NCBI GenBank assembly: GCA_022226955.1
Contig: CP092079.1
Location: 537,217-601,216, forward strand
Direction: 5' to 3'
DNA from: Nitrospira sp.
Lineage (GTDB): Bacteria > Nitrospirota > Nitrospiria > Nitrospirales > Nitrospiraceae
DNA length: 64,000 nt
Part shown: positions 36,038 through 51,417 of the stretch, piece after piece
Position numbering within the stretch: the stretch's first letter is position 1
Layout: every line of letters begins with the position of its first letter
Program-made: the position numbers and the translations under genes
The notes under the pieces: model-generated
What the model saw: the letters and a program-made list of their open reading frames with translations, nothing else
Databases searched by the model: none
What the model was told of the DNA's origin: nothing

Positions 36038-36934
36038 GTGGAACTACGACATTTACGATATTTTCTCGCGGCCGCCGATGCGTTGCATTTCACGAAGGCC
36101 GCGGCGCAGGCCCATGTCTCTCAGCCCGCGCTCTCCGCGCAGATCAAGCAACTGGAAGAAGAAGTTGCGACGCCGTTGTTCGAGCGCGTGGGCCGGTCGG
36201 TGCGGCTTACGCGGGCCGGTGAGATTTTTCGCGGACACGCCACTCGCGCTTTGCGCGAAATAGAGGCGGCGCTTACGGCCATTGCCGAAGAAGAAGAGTT
36301 GCATCGTGGCGCGGTGACGGTGGGAGTCTTGCAAACGGTCCATGCCTATTTGGCTCCGAACATCGTCGCGAGTTTTTCAGCGCGGCATCCGCACATTTCG
36401 CTCAAGCTGGAAGAGCTATCCGGCCCGGAGATCGAACAAGGCGTACTTGACGGTTTGTTGGATGTGGGAGTTGGGTTCAGCCCGCCGGCCGCCGAGGGCT
36501 TAGAGACCCAGCTACTCTTTGAAGACGATTTTGTCTTGATCGCATCACGCCGGCATCGCCTCGCGAGACGCAAGCGCATTGCATTTGCCGCATTGGCTGG
36601 CGAGCCGTTGGTGTTGCTGTCGCCTGCATATTGTGTGCGGCAACTGGTGGACGGCAGCTTTCGCGCGGCCAATACCGCGCCGAAGATCGCTATTGAAATG
36701 AATTCCATCGAAGGGATTCTTGCCACCGTTCGCTCTGGCGCGATGGCCACGATTTTGCCGCGTTTTTCCCTCGGGCGTGGCCGGGATGCGACGCTTAGCG
36801 TCATCGGGCTGACCCATCCGAGGCTCAAGCGGGGAGTTGGGCTTCTGTGGAGGCGAGGCGGCTATCGCAGTGCCGCTTCGAAGGCGTTGGCTGAACAAGT
36901 TCGCGCCACGGTCGATCAATATTGGCGTTCGTGA
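36038..36934 (+). CDS. LysR-family transcriptional regulator (CynR-like)
   Basis: The 298-residue protein opens with the classical LysR helix-turn-helix (ELRHLRYFLAAADALHFTKAAAQAHVSQPALSAQIKQLEEEV, residues 2-43) and has an effector-binding domain whose segments (LLDVGVGFSPPAAEGLE, IAIEMNSIEGILATVRSGAMATILP) track E. coli CynR. No cyanate genes are in the window, so the effector is not claimed. GTG 36038 was chosen because the helix-turn-helix starts directly after it; the frame is open upstream to 35909. The start lacks a clear ribosome site. The 3' end overlaps the PilZ gene by 19 bases. Confidence 0.85.
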   Translation: MELRHLRYFLAAADALHFTKAAAQAHVSQPALSAQIKQLEEEVATPLFERVGRSVRLTRAGEIFRGHATRALREIEAALTAIAEEEELHRGAVTVGVLQTVHAYLAPNIVASFSARHPHISLKLEELSGPEIEQGVLDGLLDVGVGFSPPAAEGLETQLLFEDDFVLIASRRHRLARRKRIAFAALAGEPLVLLSPAYCVRQLVDGSFRAANTAPKIAIEMNSIEGILATVRSGAMATILPRFSLGRGRDATLSVIGLTHPRLKRGVGLLWRRGGYRSAASKALAEQVRATVDQYWRS

Positions 36935-37299
36935 GGCGGCTCTGGCGCGAGGTTGGCCGTCGACGGGCGGCCAAGGGAGCGGACGAAGCGGGTCCAGATG
37001 ACCCGGTCGAGCTGCTGGCGGGCGACGGTGGGGAGGCGGATAAATTCGACGCCGAAGACTCGTCCGCAGACCCAGCGGATCTTGCCGAGTTCAATTGCAA
37101 GGGAGGGCGACTGATCGGGCATCAAGACGTTCAGCCGCACATAACTGCCGGAGAGCACCGTTCGATCGCAGGCGATCGCGCAACCGGAGGTCGACAAGTC
37201 TGTCAACGCGCCTTCGCCGACAAACGGCGCGCCACCAAACACGACAGGGTAGGTGACGGGAAAGCGATCGGTGGACCGTGCCTGTTGTTGGTTGGTCAT
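36916..37299 (-). CDS. PilZ-domain c-di-GMP-binding protein
   Basis: The 127-residue protein contains both halves of the PilZ c-di-GMP site: R-x3-R (Arg8 and Arg12) and D-x-S-x-x-G (Asp34, Ser36, Gly39). The rest is the expected six-stranded barrel (YVRLNVLMP, GKIRWVCGRVFGVEF). It should be a soluble receptor for c-di-GMP. The target cannot be seen from the sequence. It lies between the LysR gene and the secretin gene on the minus strand. Confidence 0.85.
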   Translation of the reverse strand: MTNQQQARSTDRFPVTYPVVFGGAPFVGEGALTDLSTSGCAIACDRTVLSGSYVRLNVLMPDQSPSLAIELGKIRWVCGRVFGVEFIRLPTVARQQLDRVIWTRFVRSLGRPSTANLAPEPPHERQY

Positions 37300-37403: not shown

Positions 37404-38963
37404 TTAGGGAGTTGAGGATGCAGGTTCGATAGGGGCCGGCGTCGGTCGCTCGAGATGTTCGAAGACATCTTGTCTCAAACGTGTGGGTTCCTCGATTCGG
37501 TTGTCACGCTGCAGGGTATTGACTTCTTTCGCTTTCCGATGACTCAGTTCGGCGACATCGCTTTCGTCGCGGATCAGGTGCGGGGTGAGGAAGACAAGGA
37601 GATTGAGTTTCTCGGTCTGTTTGCTTTGATAGCGGAAGAGCCAACCGAGCCACGGAATGTCTCCTAGGAAGGGCACCTTCCGTTCGCTGAGCGTGACGTT
37701 GTCTCGAACGAGTCCTCCCACCACGATGGTTTGATCGTCCCTTGCGATAGTAGTGGTTTCCATCGACCGTTTGGTCGTCGTGGGACCGACCGGAATAGAG
37801 GAGGTGCCCGATCCGATCGTTTGGGCCACGTTCTCGGCGATAGCGGTGATTTCTTGCTTGATCTCCAGGCGAATCAGGTCGTCTTCCAGGACTTGCGGAG
37901 TCAGCTCCAGCGTGACGCCCACGTCTTTGCGTTCGATGGTCACCAGCGTGCCGCCGGTGATGCCTTGAGCTTGCCCGGTGGGGAATGGCCGATTTTCGCC
38001 GACGACGATTTTCGCTTTCTGGTTATCGGCGGCTAACACTTGCGGCGTCGATAAGATGTTGGTGTCCGTGAGATTCATCAAGAGATTCAGAAACGCCCGG
38101 ATGTTGACCGTGTTAAGAACGGGGAGGGCGCCGCCTGAGGCTACGCCGCTGATGCTTTGGGCAATAGTAGCCAGGTCTTCCGGAGCGCGATTGAACCCCG
38201 CGAGGCCTTGAATGGCGCCCGATTTTCCGGCGCCGATGACTTGCACGGGATCGGTGCCGATCTGCCGGAGACGGTCGACCTGCACTTCTAGGATCACCGC
38301 CTCAACGAAGACCTGTTTCCTGCGGCTGTCCAAATCGCGAATGACCGATTGAATCCGGTTATAGGCCGATTTTGTGGCGCTGACCACAATGGAATTGGTG
38401 GCTTTGTCGGCAAACACTTGGACGGGCGCTTCGAATTCTGTCAGCGGCCGCAGCGGCGGCCTGACCCCAGGGGCGGTTTGCGCGACCGTTTGGGATCGGG
38501 CGACAAGGTTGGTCAGGACGGCTGCCAGATCGGTCGCATTGGCATGCTTGAGTTTATAGACATAGACACCGCGCTCCGGAGGAAGCTCTCCCATCGGTAC
38601 GATCTGATAAACGCTGCCTTTGGGGACGACGGCAATCCGACTGACTTCCAGCGCGGCCACAAACATATTGTAGGCCTGGTCCGTCGTGACTTTGGTGGGA
38701 GAGAACACGGAGATTTTCCCGCCAAGTTTCTTGATCGTCTCATCGAGCACGAAATTCTTGCCGGTCAATTCACTGATGAAACGAACGAAGACGGGGATCT
38801 CGACTTCATTGAAGTCGAGGGTGATTTTATTGGATGCGGACGCAGCCGTTTCCGCATGGCTTGCCGATGGGAGGGGCCAAGCTGAGAGCGCCGCTACCAA
38901 CAGGAGCCAGACATATTTGGAGGGAATGCGCCGGTGGGTATTCGGCAATCGGTCAGTCAGCAC
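37404..38963 (-). CDS. GspD-like secretin, short form
   Basis: The 519-residue protein has a signal peptide (WLLLVAALSAWPLPSASHAE), an N0 domain (ITLDFNEVEIPVFVRFISELTGKNFVLDE), an N1-type ring domain (VYVYKLKHANATDLAAVLTNLV, ADKATNSIVVSATKSAYNRIQSVIRDLD) and the C-terminal secretin barrel (VGGLVRDNVTLSERKVPFLGDIPWLGWLFR, NLLVFLTPHLIRD). GspD proteins usually have N0-N1-N2-N3 and 650-700 residues, so some ring domains are missing. No gspC, E, F or pilus genes lie next to it. It should form an outer-membrane gate for a type II-like or type IV pilus-like machine encoded elsewhere. Confidence 0.9.
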   Translation of the reverse strand: MLTDRLPNTHRRIPSKYVWLLLVAALSAWPLPSASHAETAASASNKITLDFNEVEIPVFVRFISELTGKNFVLDETIKKLGGKISVFSPTKVTTDQAYNMFVAALEVSRIAVVPKGSVYQIVPMGELPPERGVYVYKLKHANATDLAAVLTNLVARSQTVAQTAPGVRPPLRPLTEFEAPVQVFADKATNSIVVSATKSAYNRIQSVIRDLDSRRKQVFVEAVILEVQVDRLRQIGTDPVQVIGAGKSGAIQGLAGFNRAPEDLATIAQSISGVASGGALPVLNTVNIRAFLNLLMNLTDTNILSTPQVLAADNQKAKIVVGENRPFPTGQAQGITGGTLVTIERKDVGVTLELTPQVLEDDLIRLEIKQEITAIAENVAQTIGSGTSSIPVGPTTTKRSMETTTIARDDQTIVVGGLVRDNVTLSERKVPFLGDIPWLGWLFRYQSKQTEKLNLLVFLTPHLIRDESDVAELSHRKAKEVNTLQRDNRIEEPTRLRQDVFEHLERPTPAPIEPASSTP

Positions 38964-43641: not shown

Positions 43642-46600
43642 GTGCGTGCTGATAAGAAAATTCCACTCAAAGCCGACAAGAAGGTTCCGCCCCGTGGCCA
43701 CAAGCGGGGTGTGATCGGATATAGCAAGAAGTCCGCCCTTCTCGAAGACGCCATTACCCAAATGAATGCGGGGAAGTATGGGCGGTCGTCTGCCGCGCTG
43801 AAAGAGTTACTGGCGCTCGATCCTGCGAATATGGAGGCGCGCCGGCTATTTGCTACGCTCCACCTTCGGCTCGGAAGCCGTTTGCCGGCGAGGCAGGCCT
43901 TCGAATCGCTGGCCAACGAGGCGCTTGAACGGCAAGATTACTGGCTGGCTGAATCGTTGCTTCGTGAGTATCTTGCCGCTGGTCCTCGATGCGTTCCTTT
44001 CATTGAGAAACTGGGGTTGGTATACCAGGAAAAGGGAGATGCCCTCGCTGCGTCAGAAGAGTTTGCCAAGGCCATCGACATTCTCGTCGAAGACCCTGAC
44101 CCCGATCGCCCCGCCTTGCCGGCTGAATTGTATGCCAAGATTCGAGAGCTCGCTCCGGCGAGTCCTCCCGCGTTTCGTCTCGCCTCGCTCTTCGATGCGC
44201 AGACAGGAGAGTTGATTGCTCGCCCGGCGACTGCGCTGAGCCCGGATCAGGATGACATCTCGGCCCCGTTTGTGGCGGTTGAGCCGCTGGAGCCCATAGC
44301 GGAGAGTCTCTCGACCCTGCCAGCCGATCCAGTATCCGGCGTGATGCCGTGGGATGACGTGTCTCCGAATCCGTCGGAATTGCTAGCCCGGAGTTCTCCG
44401 TCTGAGACGCCGGATCAATTTGTCTCATCGCCAGAGGCACTGTTTGAGCCGCCGGTCGAGGTAGCTGTAGCGCCAATCGCTCCTCCGCTTGTGGAGGAGT
44501 CACTTGTGACGCAGACCGCCCTCAATGAGCAATCGCCGGTTGAGCAGAATTCCAGTCCGCCCCCTCAATACTCAGGTGATGACAATTCGTCGCCGAGTGC
44601 TGTTCACGACAGAGAATCCTCTCGTCTCCAGCCAATGCATGAGGATTTCACGGATACGACTGGCGCCCTGCCGGCGTCGGAGTGGGGCGCGGCTTCATTG
44701 CCAGTGCCGCAAGATCTTGAGAGCGTTGCTGCGAACAAGGCGACTTGCGTGACTGAAGCGGTGCAGGCTCCTCAATCGGATGTGTCCAATACGTTGCTGA
44801 GCCCTACATCGGAGATTCCCTCTGATCCGTTGCCTTGGGAGCAGGTTCAGGAAGCAACGGTTGCAATTCCTCAATCAAATGAGGAATCCCTCTCCGTGAC
44901 CGTTCAGAGCGCGGAGGCCATCTCTGTGCCCTCGCCAGAAACCTTGCCAGTCAATGCGGTGGTTTCTGAGCCGTCAGAAGAAAAGCGAGAAGAAGAGCCA
45001 TCGCTATTGGCCGGGCCGCCGCTGTCGTTAGCCACAACCGAAGAATGTTCGCCAGATGTGACATGGTCGGCACCGGATGTAGCGGTGACTGAGCCAGCGA
45101 GTTCTTATTCTCCGCCACCGGAACCATCGCAGGCGAGTTCAGTTTTGGAGGAACAGATATCGGATAGGCCGGCTGAGTTCGTGCGCTTGCCTATGCCATG
45201 GGAACAGGTGCAGGAATCGTCGATCAGTATTGAAGGAGTCACTCAAGAGCCTATCGATCTGGCAACAGCGCCGCCGGAACCACTTCTGGCTCAGCTTCAG
45301 GAGACAGTTCCTGCTGAAACTAGCGATAGGGGTATACCTGAGGCTGTTGAAACGCCGTCAGCGTTTAGCGGCCTCGCGTTGAACGAGGCGGCGTCCGTCC
45401 CAATAGACGAGGTGGTGTCGCCACCGGAGCGTCCCCCCGTTTCCGAGCCGAGCCCAGAGATCGGGAAGTTTTCGTGGGCCTCAATTTTCAACAGTGCTTG
45501 GAACTTCGGCTCATCGTCTCCAGCACCGCACGACTCTCTGGCTCATGTTTCGCCGCTAGAGACCGCCGTGCCGGCAGAGGCAGTGTTGCCTCACGAGGCT
45601 GTGAGCCTTTCGGTTCCCCCGGAAGGGCTGGCGACCGATGCTGTTTCTGATGCGGTGGAAGAACCGGCACCAGTCTTGTCCCCCATGCCCTGGGATCAGA
45701 TTCAGGAGACAGCACCCGTTTCGACTTCATCTACGGATAGTGTTCTGAGCCAAGAGGTCGAGTTTCCTGAGGCGGTTTCTGTTTCACCCGTTGAGATTGC
45801 TGAGAAAGCCGTCGGCCAGGATGCAACCGAGGTCACTCCTGTATTTCAGGAAGAACAAACGGTACGTGTCCCGGCGGATGAACGTCTAGATGCGGATCCT
45901 GGATTTGCCAGTTCGGCAATGCCGGATGTATCCCCAATGCCTTGGGAGCAAACTCAGGAGATATCCGTTGCGATTCCATCCGAGGAGGTGGCTCCGCAGC
46001 CAGTCGTCGAGCCACTCGCGGAAGCTCCTGCCGAGCCGGTTGTGTCGTCCGATATGCCTGTCCAAGAGGTTATTCAGGACGTGATGCGGGTTATGGCGGT
46101 TGACGAAGCGTCGGCCGAATCCGCGGGTGTTCACATTGAAGAAGCTCCGCATAACGATGTCGCTCCGGTCGAGCCCGCGGAACCATTGTTCCGTTTCCTA
46201 GATCCCGAGAAGATTGACGAGAATGGTGAGGTGCACGCGCGTCTCTCCGAAGCGGAAGCGCAGTCCGATAATACGACGTTGCCGAGTGAAACGTCGGCGG
46301 AGACGTCACCGGTCATGAGCTCTGCGCCAGTCGATGGCGATTCACCGGCTCAGGCCGAGGAGTTTCACCTCGTCCAGCAAGCAGAGCCGGAGCCTGTCGC
46401 TCCAGAGTTCACCAGGCCAGCTGAACCGGCCGAGAGCGTGGAGCCGGCTTCCGTGGCTTCCGTTTCAGCGCCGCCGGCCCCGCCTCTCTTGCCGCATGAA
46501 TTGCTACCGGTTCTTCAGACGCTGGTCGACCAGTTGTCGGTGGCGACCAAGGTCATTCCTGCGATCTCTGCTGAAGCGAAACCTCGTGATCAAGAGATCG

Positions 46601-48597
46601 TTCAGGAGGCCGCATTCTTACAAGAGCCATCGACGGCATCGATTTCCGCGGAGCTTGCTGCAAGTCCATCAGCGGCGCAGATGCCTTCGGTTGAAGAGGA
46701 TTCCCTCTTGCAGGGGAAGACCGGCGAAGTGGCGGGTCACACGCATCGCCTTTTGGCCGAGAAACAAGAAGATTTGATCGAGCCGGCTTCCGAAGCCCCG
46801 GTCGTCATTCCGCCAGTCGACGATCCGCTAGCAGTTCCCGCCGATGCGGTTTCTCAATTGGTTTCGCCGGCCGTTGAGACAGCGATGCCGACTCCCTCAG
46901 CTGCGCAGGATAAAGAGGCGTGGGTTAAGACCAGTGAGACAATTCGCTTTATTGATCCGAAACTGGCCGCGGCGGCACATCTGTCGCCGCCGCCTCCAGA
47001 GATTCAAGAAGAATGGCCGACGGGTTCGCTTTCGCAGTCGCCAGCGGCGTCGGCCGTCGATGTGCTTTTTCAATCATCGGGAGCGCCGGCACGGACTCAG
47101 ACGATTGAGCGAACGGCTGTTCCCAAGCCACGTCCACGGTTGAGTGCGAAACTGGCCCGCGTCCGTATTGGCCTGTGGTTGTTCATCAGTTCCTGCTTCT
47201 CGACGACGCACACAGTGGTGACATCGATTGTGGGGCTGGCGGTGTTGTCCGTGTCGGTCGTGGCGATGGCCATTGGAGTTGTGGGTTTGATTTGGTTGGT
47301 GATGGAAGAAAAGCCGAGCCCAGCGTTTCAAAGTCTGACGACGCCTCCGCAACGCGCCATGATGGATTCCGGTAAAAACGGATACTTGCTGTTGCTCGGA
47401 TTCGAGGCGGATGCGACGGCGGATCCGGTGCAGGCGGGGCACGAACGAAAGCCGGATGCTAAGGATGGAGAGATGGCCGCAGTCTGCCAAGGCGGAGACG
47501 AAGGCCAGACCGGATCCAATCAGAAAAATGCGTCCGCGAGTGTGGCACAGGGCTGGTATCGGTCGGCGGATCCGTCCGGACAGTTCACAGCACAAGCGAA
47601 CAGCTTGAAAGACTGGGCAGGTCAGGCGAATGTGCCCCTCGGCCGTTACCGGCAATGGCTCAAGATGCCGTTTGAGGATTGGGGGCATGGCCAAGCGGTG
47701 ACCCCACCCTGCGCGGCGATTCTTTTTGCGCATCGGTTGCACGTGGCGGAAGGGTTTAGCCAAGGGGGCGGCGCGGAGGCCGGAGTCGAGCGACTGGAAG
47801 GCGACATGGAAGCCTGGCGGACCACGTTGGGCCAGGCGAAGACGCTCCCGGTCAAAATGATGGCGCTGCAAGCGATCAACGACGATATTGCGGTCGCGTC
47901 AGGATTACTGGTCAATCCGGACTTCGATGGGAAGGCCCTCCCTCGGATCACCAAGATGCTTCGTCCGCTCGATCCGGTTGAGTCGTCGATGCGCTGGCCG
48001 ATGCAGAGTCAGTTGGTCTTGGCAGTGGAGTCATATGAGTCGCAACTCGATGCCGATCGGGGCGACGAGGTGCCGCTTCATGTCCGGGTGGCCGGCATGC
48101 TTCCGCTGCCGAAACAACGGCGGTTCAACGACTACGCCGAGTACTACGAAGCGTCCTATAAGGCGGCCGGGGAAGGCCGGTATAGTGCCATGCCGAAGCG
48201 CGCTACATACATCAAATATCCGGCGGCCGGCGTCATGGACTATGTGACGAATCCAGTGGAGAACATCATCGGGATTGCCCCGCTCCCAGCCTGGGACCGC
48301 TACAACGGCTTGGTGATCGATCTTGACGCGCGTCTCCGTTTGGTGAGTCTGCAAGCCTGGTTGCGCCGCAGCCCGCAGGACGACGATCTGCTGGCGCGGA
48401 TCGCCAAGGCCGGTCAACGCTTTTATGACCCCTATACAGGCCTGCCGATGCTGGTCAATCTCAAGAGAGGGGTTCTCTATAGCGTGGGTCACGATGGTAA
48501 GGACCAAGATGCGGACCCTGAACAGGATGTTGTCGTGACTATCCCCGCCAATCAACCTGCGGCTGTTCCTGCCAAACCTGTTTCAAAGTCGAAGTAA
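43642..48597 (+). CDS. Giant bitopic protein: TPR head, low-complexity PWEQ-repeat linker, periplasmic tail
   Basis: The 1651-codon frame encodes an N-terminal TPR-type region (about 29-175, e.g. KYGRSSAALKELLALDPANMEARRLFATLHLRLG). A roughly 970-residue linker rich in Pro, Ala, Ser, Glu and Val follows. It contains five related motifs around Trp237, 399, 520, 684 and 768: MPWDDV once, then PW[ED]QxQE four times. A basic stretch, one membrane span (about 1190-1222) and a 430-residue C-terminal domain rich in Trp/Tyr follow. The basic segment before the span predicts a cytoplasmic N-terminus and a periplasmic C-terminus. The tail start NGYLLLLGFEADATADPV recalls a hypothetical domain in other Gram-negatives. 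No enzyme motif is seen. GTG 43642 is the longest start; GTG 43711 is an alternative. Both lack a good ribosome site. Confidence 0.7.
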   Translation: MRADKKIPLKADKKVPPRGHKRGVIGYSKKSALLEDAITQMNAGKYGRSSAALKELLALDPANMEARRLFATLHLRLGSRLPARQAFESLANEALERQDYWLAESLLREYLAAGPRCVPFIEKLGLVYQEKGDALAASEEFAKAIDILVEDPDPDRPALPAELYAKIRELAPASPPAFRLASLFDAQTGELIARPATALSPDQDDISAPFVAVEPLEPIAESLSTLPADPVSGVMPWDDVSPNPSELLARSSPSETPDQFVSSPEALFEPPVEVAVAPIAPPLVEESLVTQTALNEQSPVEQNSSPPPQYSGDDNSSPSAVHDRESSRLQPMHEDFTDTTGALPASEWGAASLPVPQDLESVAANKATCVTEAVQAPQSDVSNTLLSPTSEIPSDPLPWEQVQEATVAIPQSNEESLSVTVQSAEAISVPSPETLPVNAVVSEPSEEKREEEPSLLAGPPLSLATTEECSPDVTWSAPDVAVTEPASSYSPPPEPSQASSVLEEQISDRPAEFVRLPMPWEQVQESSISIEGVTQEPIDLATAPPEPLLAQLQETVPAETSDRGIPEAVETPSAFSGLALNEAASVPIDEVVSPPERPPVSEPSPEIGKFSWASIFNSAWNFGSSSPAPHDSLAHVSPLETAVPAEAVLPHEAVSLSVPPEGLATDAVSDAVEEPAPVLSPMPWDQIQETAPVSTSSTDSVLSQEVEFPEAVSVSPVEIAEKAVGQDATEVTPVFQEEQTVRVPADERLDADPGFASSAMPDVSPMPWEQTQEISVAIPSEEVAPQPVVEPLAEAPAEPVVSSDMPVQEVIQDVMRVMAVDEASAESAGVHIEEAPHNDVAPVEPAEPLFRFLDPEKIDENGEVHARLSEAEAQSDNTTLPSETSAETSPVMSSAPVDGDSPAQAEEFHLVQQAEPEPVAPEFTRPAEPAESVEPASVASVSAPPAPPLLPHELLPVLQTLVDQLSVATKVIPAISAEAKPRDQEIVQEAAFLQEPSTASISAELAASPSAAQMPSVEEDSLLQGKTGEVAGHTHRLLAEKQEDLIEPASEAPVVIPPVDDPLAVPADAVSQLVSPAVETAMPTPSAAQDKEAWVKTSETIRFIDPKLAAAAHLSPPPPEIQEEWPTGSLSQSPAASAVDVLFQSSGAPARTQTIERTAVPKPRPRLSAKLARVRIGLWLFISSCFSTTHTVVTSIVGLAVLSVSVVAMAIGVVGLIWLVMEEKPSPAFQSLTTPPQRAMMDSGKNGYLLLLGFEADATADPVQAGHERKPDAKDGEMAAVCQGGDEGQTGSNQKNASASVAQGWYRSADPSGQFTAQANSLKDWAGQANVPLGRYRQWLKMPFEDWGHGQAVTPPCAAILFAHRLHVAEGFSQGGGAEAGVERLEGDMEAWRTTLGQAKTLPVKMMALQAINDDIAVASGLLVNPDFDGKALPRITKMLRPLDPVESSMRWPMQSQLVLAVESYESQLDADRGDEVPLHVRVAGMLPLPKQRRFNDYAEYYEASYKAAGEGRYSAMPKRATYIKYPAAGVMDYVTNPVENIIGIAPLPAWDRYNGLVIDLDARLRLVSLQAWLRRSPQDDDLLARIAKAGQRFYDPYTGLPMLVNLKRGVLYSVGHDGKDQDADPEQDVVVTIPANQPAAVPAKPVSKSK

Positions 48598-48825
48598 TCT
48601 CGTTGGGTGTACGTATCATCGCACAGTTGGGGCTCGGTTGACTGCCACCGTCGCATCGTCGGCGGTGTCAACGCATGGCCTCTCAAAACGTTCAGAGATA
48701 TATGGACAGTTCTCTCAGGAGAGAAATTGAGTGGAACCGGTGTCTTGACCCAGCGCCAAGATCTCATGACAATCGGGCATACAGGGTAGGATCCTGTGTG
48801 GCTGGCTCGAAATGAGGAGGTGTCT

Positions 48826-49437
48826 ATGGCACTTTCTCATAGAGTGATACCGGCCCGCAGCGGTCACTGCTATCAGGGTGGGAGGAGCGCAACTCTGGAG
48901 GAGACGCGGGCGCTTGATCGATTTTTGGCCGGGATCGAACGCCGCGCGTTTCGGATGGCGCAGCTTGCCACGGGACAGGATGATGAGGCGCTCGATCTTG
49001 TGCAGGAGGCCATGCTTAAGCTGGTCGAACGGTACGGTACGCGCGACGAAGCGGAATGGGGGCCGCTGTTTCACAGGATTTTACAATCGAAGATTCGCGA
49101 TTGGTATCGGCGGACAAAAGTCCGCAACCGCTGGCGCCTCTGGTTGAAGGCTGACGAAGACGGCGAAGCAACCGACGATCCATTGGCGGCGATTGCCGAT
49201 ACGGCGACCCCGGCGGCAGACCATCAACTGAAGACGAAAGAGGCTGCGGCGGCGCTCGATGCGGCTTTGCGCGCGCTGCCGCTTCGGCAGCAACAAGCCT
49301 TCTTGCTGCGAGCCTGGGAGGAGCTGGATGTGGCACAGACGGCGGCGGCCATGGACTGTTCCGAGGGGAGCGTGAAGACGCATTATTTTCGAGCGATTCA
49401 CACGCTTCGAACGCGGTTGGGGAATCATTGGCCATGA
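48826..49437 (+). CDS. ECF-family sigma factor (second system)
   Basis: The 203-residue sigma factor has region 2 (LDRFLAGIERRAFRMAQLATGQDDEALDLVQEAMLKLVERY) and region 4 (ALPLRQQQAFLLRAWEELDVAQTAAAMDCSEGSVKTHYFRAIHTLR). The ATG at 48826 has a strong GAGGAGG site; a longer frame starts at 48796. It overlaps the next gene by ATGA and heads a four-gene unit with DUF3619, a small exported protein and a DUF3106 protein, an arrangement I recall from Proteobacteria. Confidence 0.92.
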   Translation: MALSHRVIPARSGHCYQGGRSATLEETRALDRFLAGIERRAFRMAQLATGQDDEALDLVQEAMLKLVERYGTRDEAEWGPLFHRILQSKIRDWYRRTKVRNRWRLWLKADEDGEATDDPLAAIADTATPAADHQLKTKEAAAALDAALRALPLRQQQAFLLRAWEELDVAQTAAAMDCSEGSVKTHYFRAIHTLRTRLGNHWP

Positions 49438-49787
49438 GTCAAGATTTGCCGCGCGACGATCGGGAATTTGTCCAGCAGGCCAAAGAGGTATTGGATCGTG
49501 CTGTCGGCGAGGTGGACCATGCGGCAGTCCTTCGCCTCCAGCAGGGACGGCTGGCCGCGTTGGATGCGCGGGCGCGCCGGTTTTCGTGGCGGCCTTGGGC
49601 GTCCGGTCTGGCGATCGCTTCGCTTGCGGCGCTGGCCGTATTGCTCTGGATGCAACCGGCGCCGCCTCTTCAGCAGGCGGCGGTGCCGTTGGACGATTTC
49701 GAGCTCGTCACATCTGTCGAGAATGTCGAGCTAGCCGAAGATCTCGAATTTTTCCATTGGCTGGCCGGCGATGATCAGGCAGGGTAG
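49434..49787 (+). CDS. DUF3619-family membrane protein, probable anti-sigma factor
   Basis: The 117-residue protein has a short cytoplasmic N-terminal part (REFVQQAKEVLDRAVGEVDHAAVLRLQQGRLAALDAR), one membrane helix (WASGLAIASLAALAVLLWM) and a short periplasmic tail ending in an acidic DDFELVTSVENVELAEDLEFFHWL. This is the DUF3619 layout, and its place directly behind an ECF sigma gene suggests an anti-sigma role (inference). It overlaps the sigma stop by four bases and the next gene by 17. Confidence 0.75.
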   Translation: MSQDLPRDDREFVQQAKEVLDRAVGEVDHAAVLRLQQGRLAALDARARRFSWRPWASGLAIASLAALAVLLWMQPAPPLQQAAVPLDDFELVTSVENVELAEDLEFFHWLAGDDQAG

Positions 49788-50106
49788 CAGGTCTGTCTGT
49801 GCAGGATTGGCAGGCGGCGCGCTGCTGTGGATGGCGGTATCGGCGGCTGCCGCGCCGCCCGAGGCCACGCCGATTCCAGATGCCGACTTCCTGGAATTTT
49901 TAGGAAGCTGGCACACGGGCGATGGCCGGTGGGTCGATCCGTTTCATGCCGCTGAATTATCGGGTGCCGAAACGGGGGCTCCTCAGAAACGTCAGCGGAC
50001 CGAACCGGCGCAGGAACCACCGCGAACGAATCGACGGGAAACCCGTGAAGGGTCTGATCAGCAAAGTGTTTGGCCAATCGATCCCACGCGAGAGATGACG
50101 CGATGA
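49771..50106 (+). CDS. Small exported hypothetical protein in the ECF operon
   Basis: The 111-residue protein has a signal peptide (AGLAGGALLWMAVSAAAAPPE) and the motif DADFLEFLGSWHTGDGRWVDP, which I recall from the third gene of sigma/DUF3619/DUF3106 clusters. The rest is Arg/Glu/Gln-rich and probably disordered. It overlaps both neighbours, by 17 and by 4 bases, so it is coupled to them. Confidence 0.6.
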   Translation: MIRQGSRSVCAGLAGGALLWMAVSAAAAPPEATPIPDADFLEFLGSWHTGDGRWVDPFHAAELSGAETGAPQKRQRTEPAQEPPRTNRRETREGSDQQSVWPIDPTREMTR

Positions 50107-50633
50107 GAGGATTTGTACTCAATATTCTTCTGCTGTGTGGCTGGAGTCTCGCGGCATGGGCTCAAGCCGAATCCCCGGGTGTGCCGTGGAGCCAGCTGAA
50201 TCAGCAGGAACAGCAGCTGTTGCAGAAATTCAATCAGGACTGGGATCGGCTGACGGCGGACCGTCAGGAACGTTTGCGCAACGGCGCGCAACAGTGGTCG
50301 AGCATGAATCCCGATGAACGGACCGAGGCGCGGCAGCGGTTCCAGGAGTGGCGGCAAATGTCTCCGGACGATCAACAGCGCTTGCGAGACCGGTTCCAGC
50401 GATTTCGGGAGTTGCCGCCGGAAAAGCGCGAGGCCATTCGCAACGCGCGGCAGTGGTTTCGGTCACTGCCGCCCGACGAGCGTCATGAGATGCGCCAGCG
50501 CTGGAAAAACATGACGCCCGATGAACGGCGCGCCTTTCGCCGGCAGTTCCGAAAGGACTTCGATGGCGAGAGGTCTGTTCCATCGGGGAATCAGTTTCCG
50601 CGCCGCGACCGGCCGTTCCGTCCCAACCGGTAG
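50103..50633 (+). CDS. DUF3106-family exported repeat protein
   Basis: The 176-residue protein has a signal peptide (FVLNILLLCGWSLAAWAQA) and about seven repeats of some 19-20 residues, each built on a W/F-x-x-[ML]-x-P-[DE]-[DEK]-[RQ] turn (MNPDERTEARQRFQEW, MSPDDQQRLRDRF, LPPEKREAIRNA, LPPDERHEMRQRW, MTPDERRAFRRQF). This is the DUF3106 pattern. It is highly charged, likely helical, and periplasmic. It is the last gene of the sigma unit. Confidence 0.82.
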   Translation: MRGFVLNILLLCGWSLAAWAQAESPGVPWSQLNQQEQQLLQKFNQDWDRLTADRQERLRNGAQQWSSMNPDERTEARQRFQEWRQMSPDDQQRLRDRFQRFRELPPEKREAIRNARQWFRSLPPDERHEMRQRWKNMTPDERRAFRRQFRKDFDGERSVPSGNQFPRRDRPFRPNR

Positions 50634-50733: not shown

Positions 50734-51417
50734 ATGAAAAGCGAAATACTGTATCCGGGGGCCTTTCCAATGGTGCGCATTGAGTTGGCGGCAGGGGAAC
50801 ACCTCAAAGCCGAATCGGGCGCAATGGTCGCTTCTTCGCCGACGGTAGACGTCGAAAGCAAGATGGAGGGCGGTTTTCTTGGCGCGCTCTCGCGCAAACT
50901 TCTGACGGGAGAAAAATTCTTCTTTCAGACATTGCGGGCGAGTCGTGGGCCTGGTGAAGTGTTGCTGGCGCCGACGGTGCCGGGTGAAGTTGTCCTTCTT
51001 GATCTCGACGGTGTGAATGAATACATGGTGCAGAAGGACGGCTTTCTGGCGGGCGCCGAGGGCATTAACATCGAAAGCAAGATGCAGAGTTTGAGCCGCG
51101 GACTCTTGGGGGGCGAAGGATTTTTCATTCTGAAGATTGGCGGCAAAGGGATGCTGGCGCTGAACAGTTTCGGCGCGATCCATAAGATCGAACTCAGGCC
51201 GGATCAAGAATACATCGTCGACAACAGCCATCTCGTGGCCTGGTCGGCGACGACGTCGTACAACATCGAGAAAGCCTCTTCCGGTTGGGTCGCCAGCTTC
51301 ACGTCGGGCGAAGGGCTGGTCTGCCGATTCCGTGGGCCGGGGATTGTCTACATCCAAAGCCGCAATCCAGGCAGTTTTGGATCGTGGATCAGGCAATTCA
51401 TCCCGGTGTCGGAGTAG
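50734..51417 (+). CDS. TIGR00266/AIM24-family protein
   Basis: The 227-residue protein is a repeated beta-rich domain: EILYPGAFPMVRIELAAGEHLKAESGAMVASSPTVDVE, GGFLGALSRKLLTGEKFFFQTLRA, and a second copy LSRGLLGGEGFFILKIGGKG. This matches the TIGR00266/AIM24 family, whose structure is a trimeric TRAP-like barrel of unknown role. The N-terminal ESGAM and the C-terminal RNPGSFGSWIRQF are typical. A repeat-like element begins at the last base of its stop codon. Confidence 0.88.
   Translation: MKSEILYPGAFPMVRIELAAGEHLKAESGAMVASSPTVDVESKMEGGFLGALSRKLLTGEKFFFQTLRASRGPGEVLLAPTVPGEVVLLDLDGVNEYMVQKDGFLAGAEGINIESKMQSLSRGLLGGEGFFILKIGGKGMLALNSFGAIHKIELRPDQEYIVDNSHLVAWSATTSYNIEKASSGWVASFTSGEGLVCRFRGPGIVYIQSRNPGSFGSWIRQFIPVSE

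Follow-up and report, generated by a model that had tools for sequence, protein, structure and literature searches.

A large bitopic protein of the Nitrospiraceae with conserved tryptophan-acidic linker motifs: a candidate membrane-anchored docking scaffold

PodJ, the polar scaffold of Caulobacter, combines a cytoplasmic N-terminus and a disordered client-binding region with one transmembrane span and a periplasmic C-terminus that holds a helical-repeat domain (PMC8980812). The polar landmarks HubP and FimV likewise have one span, a long cytoplasmic region and a TPR-type domain, and they recruit several clients (PMC11236974). In this study, we analysed a 1651-aa bitopic protein of Nitrospira sp. 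whose overall layout invites comparison with these systems. Nitrospira carry out nitrite oxidation and complete ammonia oxidation; to our knowledge, little is known of how their envelope is organised. A limited search of the Nitrospira literature returned an unrelated paper only and no description of this protein. Coordinates refer to the window, that is, the whole 64-kb stretch of DNA analysed (positions 537,217-601,216 of a complete 3.635-Mb genome). The protein is best read as a membrane-anchored docking scaffold, or tether, of the Nitrospiraceae, to which we assign a probability of roughly 0.55.

Architecture, reading frame and topology

43642..48597, + strand: gene of the 1651-aa bitopic protein, GTG start, single open frame
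43726..44211, + strand: TPR-type head, residues 29-190, AF2 pLDDT about 94
44230..47136, + strand: low-complexity acidic linker rich in P, A, S, E and V, residues 197-1165, delimited by composition
47215..47301, + strand: single transmembrane span, about residues 1192-1220, from hydropathy and flanking charge, predicted N-in/C-out
47311..48561, + strand: predicted extracytoplasmic helical tail, residues 1224-1640, from ortholog alignment and AF2

A preliminary description of this DNA had proposed that one gene joins a TPR-like head, a linker of about 970 residues, one span and a 430-aa tail, and this arrangement was borne out. The GTG at 43642 is probably the right start because the orthologs keep the N-terminal VRxxKK... 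in the alignment; inspection by eye shows no obvious strong Shine-Dalgarno sequence. Orthologs of 1213-1745 aa were found in about 50 Nitrospira genomes, and the protein is present in at least nine genera of the Nitrospiraceae. A phylum-wide search of 296 Nitrospirota genomes detected the tail in 76, of which all except one belong to the same family. Two contigs labelled Anaerolineales and Nitrosospira (L065, L068) also hold Nitrospira-like sequence; these records are probably mislabelled or mixed.

When the window gene was compared with four close relatives, the head had a dN/dS of 0.04-0.05 and the linker one of 0.34-0.45. Within the linker, the PW motifs gave 0.11-0.28 and a second motif, FSW, gave 0.06-0.20; the value for span and tail together was 0.08-0.13. 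The PW motifs are thus about two to four times more constrained than the surrounding linker. These values indicate that the linker is translated and that its motifs are selectively kept. A frame error in 43642-48597, which the preliminary description had named as a possible objection, is ruled out by the orthologs and by dN/dS below 1, the linker being under purifying selection.

By its model, the head is a helix-turn-helix TPR fold. It matched TPR proteins with a Foldseek E value of 2.8e-5 and VIA Z scores of up to 13.3, with many matches tied, and the Pfam TPR models scored below their cut-offs on it (the best, TPR_16, at 19.6 bits vs 32.7). The tail is predicted to lie outside the inner membrane, on the grounds of positive-inside charges and an invariant cysteine pair: the mean net charge in 37 orthologs is +5.2 before the span and -1.8 after it, and all 37 tails contain exactly two cysteines, both invariant (1282 and 1357). 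The periplasmic location suggested earlier is therefore favoured, and the periplasmic function suggested with it stays putative. AF2 modelled the tail as a helical domain (pLDDT 79, pTM 0.83). Searches of Pfam, NCBIfam and PDB sequences gave no match for the tail, which leaves no known domain as a candidate from these sources and agrees with the earlier remark that no described family is known to have this design. When the tail fold was compared with the PDB, only generic helical repeats were retrieved, with Z at most 7.2 and none convincing.

Motifs of the disordered linker

In the AF2 model of residues 1-640, pLDDT is below 50 almost throughout the first 440 linker residues. Seven short motif sites were located in the linker.

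44344..44367, + strand: motif site 1, MPWDDVSP (Trp 237), conserved as MPW[DE]
44830..44853, + strand: motif copy 2, LPWEQVQE (Trp 399), followed by VAIP
45193..45216, + strand: motif copy 3, MPWEQVQE (Trp 520)
45463..45510, + strand: second conserved linker motif, GKFSWASIFNSAWNFG, residues 608-623, with a predicted short helix at 612-619
45685..45708, + strand: motif copy 4, MPWDQIQE (Trp 684)
45937..45960, + strand: motif copy 5, MPWEQTQE (Trp 768), followed by VAIP
47050..47079, + strand: third conserved linker motif, SAVDVLFQSS, residues 1137-1146

The five PW dipeptides begin at residues 236, 398, 519, 683 and 767, which confirms the tryptophan positions reported earlier. VAIP directly follows the copies at Trp 399 and Trp 768. 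Four of the five sites fit [LM]PW[DE]QxQE. The first, previously described as a degenerate copy, does depart from the octamer, but it is not just degenerate, since MPW[DE] occurs at residues 200-300 in 39 of 54 orthologs. A shuffled linker is expected to contain PW[DE]Q 0.015 times, and the octamer appeared in none of 20,000 shuffles vs four copies observed. A degenerate DNA pattern for the motif had three sites in the 3.6-Mb genome, all inside this gene (the fourth octamer, with Thr at the variable site, falls outside the pattern), and a reversed control pattern had none. Synonymous positions differ between the copies, and no tandem DNA repeat was found where they lie; together these observations indicate that selection acts on the peptide, and they rule out recent duplication of the DNA as the source of the motif.

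Among the orthologs, the motif broadens to a consensus of PMPW[DE]QxxE, after which there is often a stretch ending in I or V. Of 54 orthologs, five have four copies under the strict pattern and most have a single one; under a looser pattern, members of genus g10 mostly have four or five. Arrays of four to five copies are thus found in the window's clade and in g10, with mostly one copy elsewhere, which indicates that long arrays exist in separate lineages. Copy number ranges from zero to five, and the tryptophan has been lost from some copies in L031 and L032. Two genomes, G114 and G307, keep the head, span and tail and have no PW motif, so the core role of the protein does not depend on the motif. 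The preliminary description had viewed the octamers as binding sites for a cytoplasmic partner. The selection on them is as expected of short binding motifs, and both the partner and the binding remain putative.

The second and third linker motifs listed above, conserved in the orthologs as FSWxxxFxxAWK and AVDxLFxS, had been missed in that first reading. FSW was seen only in genera g1, g12, g15 and g17, some g12 members being without it. Genus g10 (L101, L153, L155) has a conserved Trp-acidic stretch of its own before the span, LRILWD[DN]xSS...TGNMLTRWL.

Genomic neighbourhood and relatives of the two halves

36916..37299, - strand: PilZ-domain protein beside the secretin, from Pfam PilZ (40.5 bits) and synteny
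37404..38963, - strand: GspD-type secretin, with Pfam N0, Secretin_N and Secretin; TIGR02517 at 350.8 bits vs a cut-off of 351.35

At most Nitrospira loci, a divergent GspD-type secretin gene and a PilZ gene adjoin the gene of the 1651-aa protein; in the window, a block of HDOD and GGDEF genes now lies between them. The divergent gspD neighbour is kept in g1, g12, g15 and g17, the same four genera in which FSW was seen, and this conserved placement suggests a common function or joint regulation. The operon of the type II secretion system (T2SS), from which gspD is detached in Nitrospira and three other genera, lies 300 kb away (G000:C1 877.8-888.4 kb, L103) and contains no secretin; its C, E, G, K, L/PilM-like and M genes were recognised by family models and the rest by order and appearance. 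In order-mates, gspD is found inside the T2SS operon, and in G159, G243, G268 and G272 it lies about 8-15 kb from gspK, away from the gene studied here. The GspE of the T2SS operon gave a match to an MshE-type c-di-GMP domain just over the cut-off. An AIM24-family gene (50734-51417 in the window) follows downstream at almost every Nitrospira locus, and also in g10, g12 and g19. In the window's clade, the interval between the two genes (48796-50633) codes for an ECF-type sigma factor, a DUF3106 protein and a small protein with one span; of these, the genes for the sigma factor and the DUF3106 protein also occur close to the large gene in g10 (L101).

Both halves of the protein have relatives in the same genome. 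The relative of the head is a TPR protein of 631 aa, which it matches at residues 239-390 (41% identity over 152 aa), and the tail is homologous over its full length to a standalone one-span protein of 492 aa (G000:C1:1208996; 33% identity). The tail is also homologous to a 473-aa one-span protein of a distant Nitrospirota family (G079; hhalign probability 97, E 2.8e-11). Like the 1651-aa protein, these standalone proteins have a span and a colinear tail; unlike it, they are without TPR head and linker, and they have no described function. A search for plasmid-borne relatives of the tail returned none; standalone proteins similar to the tail may occur in Proteobacteria as well. The fused forms make up one group in the trees of each half (support 93/100 and 100/99), and the standalone tail gene and the 631-aa TPR gene are about 25-45 kb apart in most genomes checked. 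We infer a single origin by fusion as the simplest reading: one joining event would have combined a copy of a cytoplasmic TPR protein with one of a single-span tail protein. By extension from the fusion, the two standalone proteins may also interact. In two genera, the standalone tail gene (L021 8901-10379; L102 8868-10316) is divergent from a cluster resembling cobalamin uptake (BtuF/C/D/B-like by eye).

Candidate roles and comparison with known systems

The gspD neighbour raises the candidate role of a dedicated T2SS accessory factor that would act on the adjacent secretin. The location of the other T2SS genes elsewhere is consistent with it, as is the presence of gspD inside the T2SS operon of order-mates. 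In one set of genomes, AVDxLF is missing from all 15 that are without T2SS and present in 15 of the 17 that have it, and G114, a g12 genome without T2SS, encodes a shrunken 974-aa version (L145) with no PW, FSW or AVDxLF motif. However, a Nitrospira sublineage with a retained gspD neighbour has a degenerate AVDxLF too, so the correlation is only suggestive, and since the clades are few, it is not built from independent events. Moreover, 16 genomes have the protein and neither a GspK over the cut-off nor a close secretin ortholog (G114, G307 and 14 of g10: G056, G093, G130, G148, G154, G156, G161, G171, G175, G198, G207, G233, G247 and G281), whereas G243 has a T2SS and no copy of the protein. 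These 16 genomes contradict a strict dependence on T2SS and make a dedicated role unlikely; the protein itself matched no T2SS-component family in Pfam or NCBIfam. A pilus-related polarity factor is an equally improbable alternative, taken from the resemblance of the head's relative to the N-terminus of SgmX. SgmX, a protein with 14 TPRs that MglA recruits, localises the PilB ATPase to the leading cell pole of Myxococcus (PMC11580455). The 631-aa TPR protein matches NF052243 (SgmX) with an E value of 9e-38, but it reaches 130 bits where the cut-off is 1800, the TPRs that match form an N-terminal block different from the one shared with the head, and neither the head nor the whole 1651-aa protein gives an NF052243 match. 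A PilQ-like secretin match accompanies the protein in every protein-bearing genome of two secretin tables, and the protein is missing from three small genomes in which no secretin was matched; against this, six genomes with a PilQ-like match do not have it. Polarity control of the MglA/MglB type was rejected, as no Roadblock (MglB-type) gene was found in the genome.

The remaining alternatives concern the motifs themselves. Tryptophan-acidic cargo motifs bind the TPRs of kinesin light chain (KLC; PMC6224480), and the PW-acidic sites, which resemble them by eye, stand in one chain with a TPR head. They might bind that head, or that of the 631-aa relative, and the linker would then fold back on itself or tie separate copies of the protein together. 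In the VIA comparison, the best-ranking matches of the head model include TPR structures of KLC, and head and motif are both strongly constrained in dN/dS. Many other TPRs, however, score as well as those of KLC (Z about 11-13). In the AF2 model of residues 1-640, the motifs have pLDDT values around or under 50 and are not confidently docked on the head, and G307 and G114 keep the head without the motif. We thus regard such self-docking as doubtful. Still more speculative is the proposal of an undescribed bacterial form of TPR/Trp-acidic recognition, in which the protein's own TPR or that of its relative reads the tandem PW[DE]QxQE motifs, so that cytoplasmic complexes are connected across the membrane with a helical domain in the periplasm that represents a new family; we hold it to be quite improbable. 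That the copies are leftovers of linker growth with no function of their own is consistent with their variable number and with the tryptophans lost in L031 and L032, but it is hard to reconcile with a dN/dS well below that of the linker, with the synonymous divergence between copies and with a core conserved across genera, and we give it very little credence.

Under the preferred scaffold reading, the nearly invariant TPR head would bind one cytoplasmic partner, and the flexible acidic linker would dock one or more soluble partners through its one to five PW[DE]QxQE sites, FSW and AVDxLF, with a gain in avidity wherever the copies are numerous. The span and helical tail would bind a periplasmic component and so hold the assembly in place at an envelope site. 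That it serves envelope machines such as type IV pili or T2SS is a guess. This large protein is conserved family-wide and has no named domain in its tail, and its motif arrays make the partner directly searchable.

In sum, the design is comparable to that of PodJ or HubP/FimV. As in PodJ, the N-terminus is predicted inside and the C-terminus outside, with a disordered region and a single span; however, the cytoplasmic part of PodJ consists of coiled coils, whereas the head here is TPR, and the TPR and peptidoglycan-binding domains of the PodJ periplasmic part have no Pfam or NCBIfam counterpart in this tail, for which the structure comparison is weak. The one span, the long cytoplasmic region and the TPR-type domain are shared with HubP/FimV. 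In HubP, an N-terminal LysM comes first and the cytoplasmic region follows the span; the order here is the reverse, with no LysM in the Pfam scan and a charge pattern of the N-in/C-out type. Because the defining domains are absent, differently ordered or without a clear counterpart in the features compared, membership in either family is not claimed. If the scaffold reading is true, PodJ/HubP-like tethers would have arisen again in the Nitrospiraceae, by a different gene fusion.
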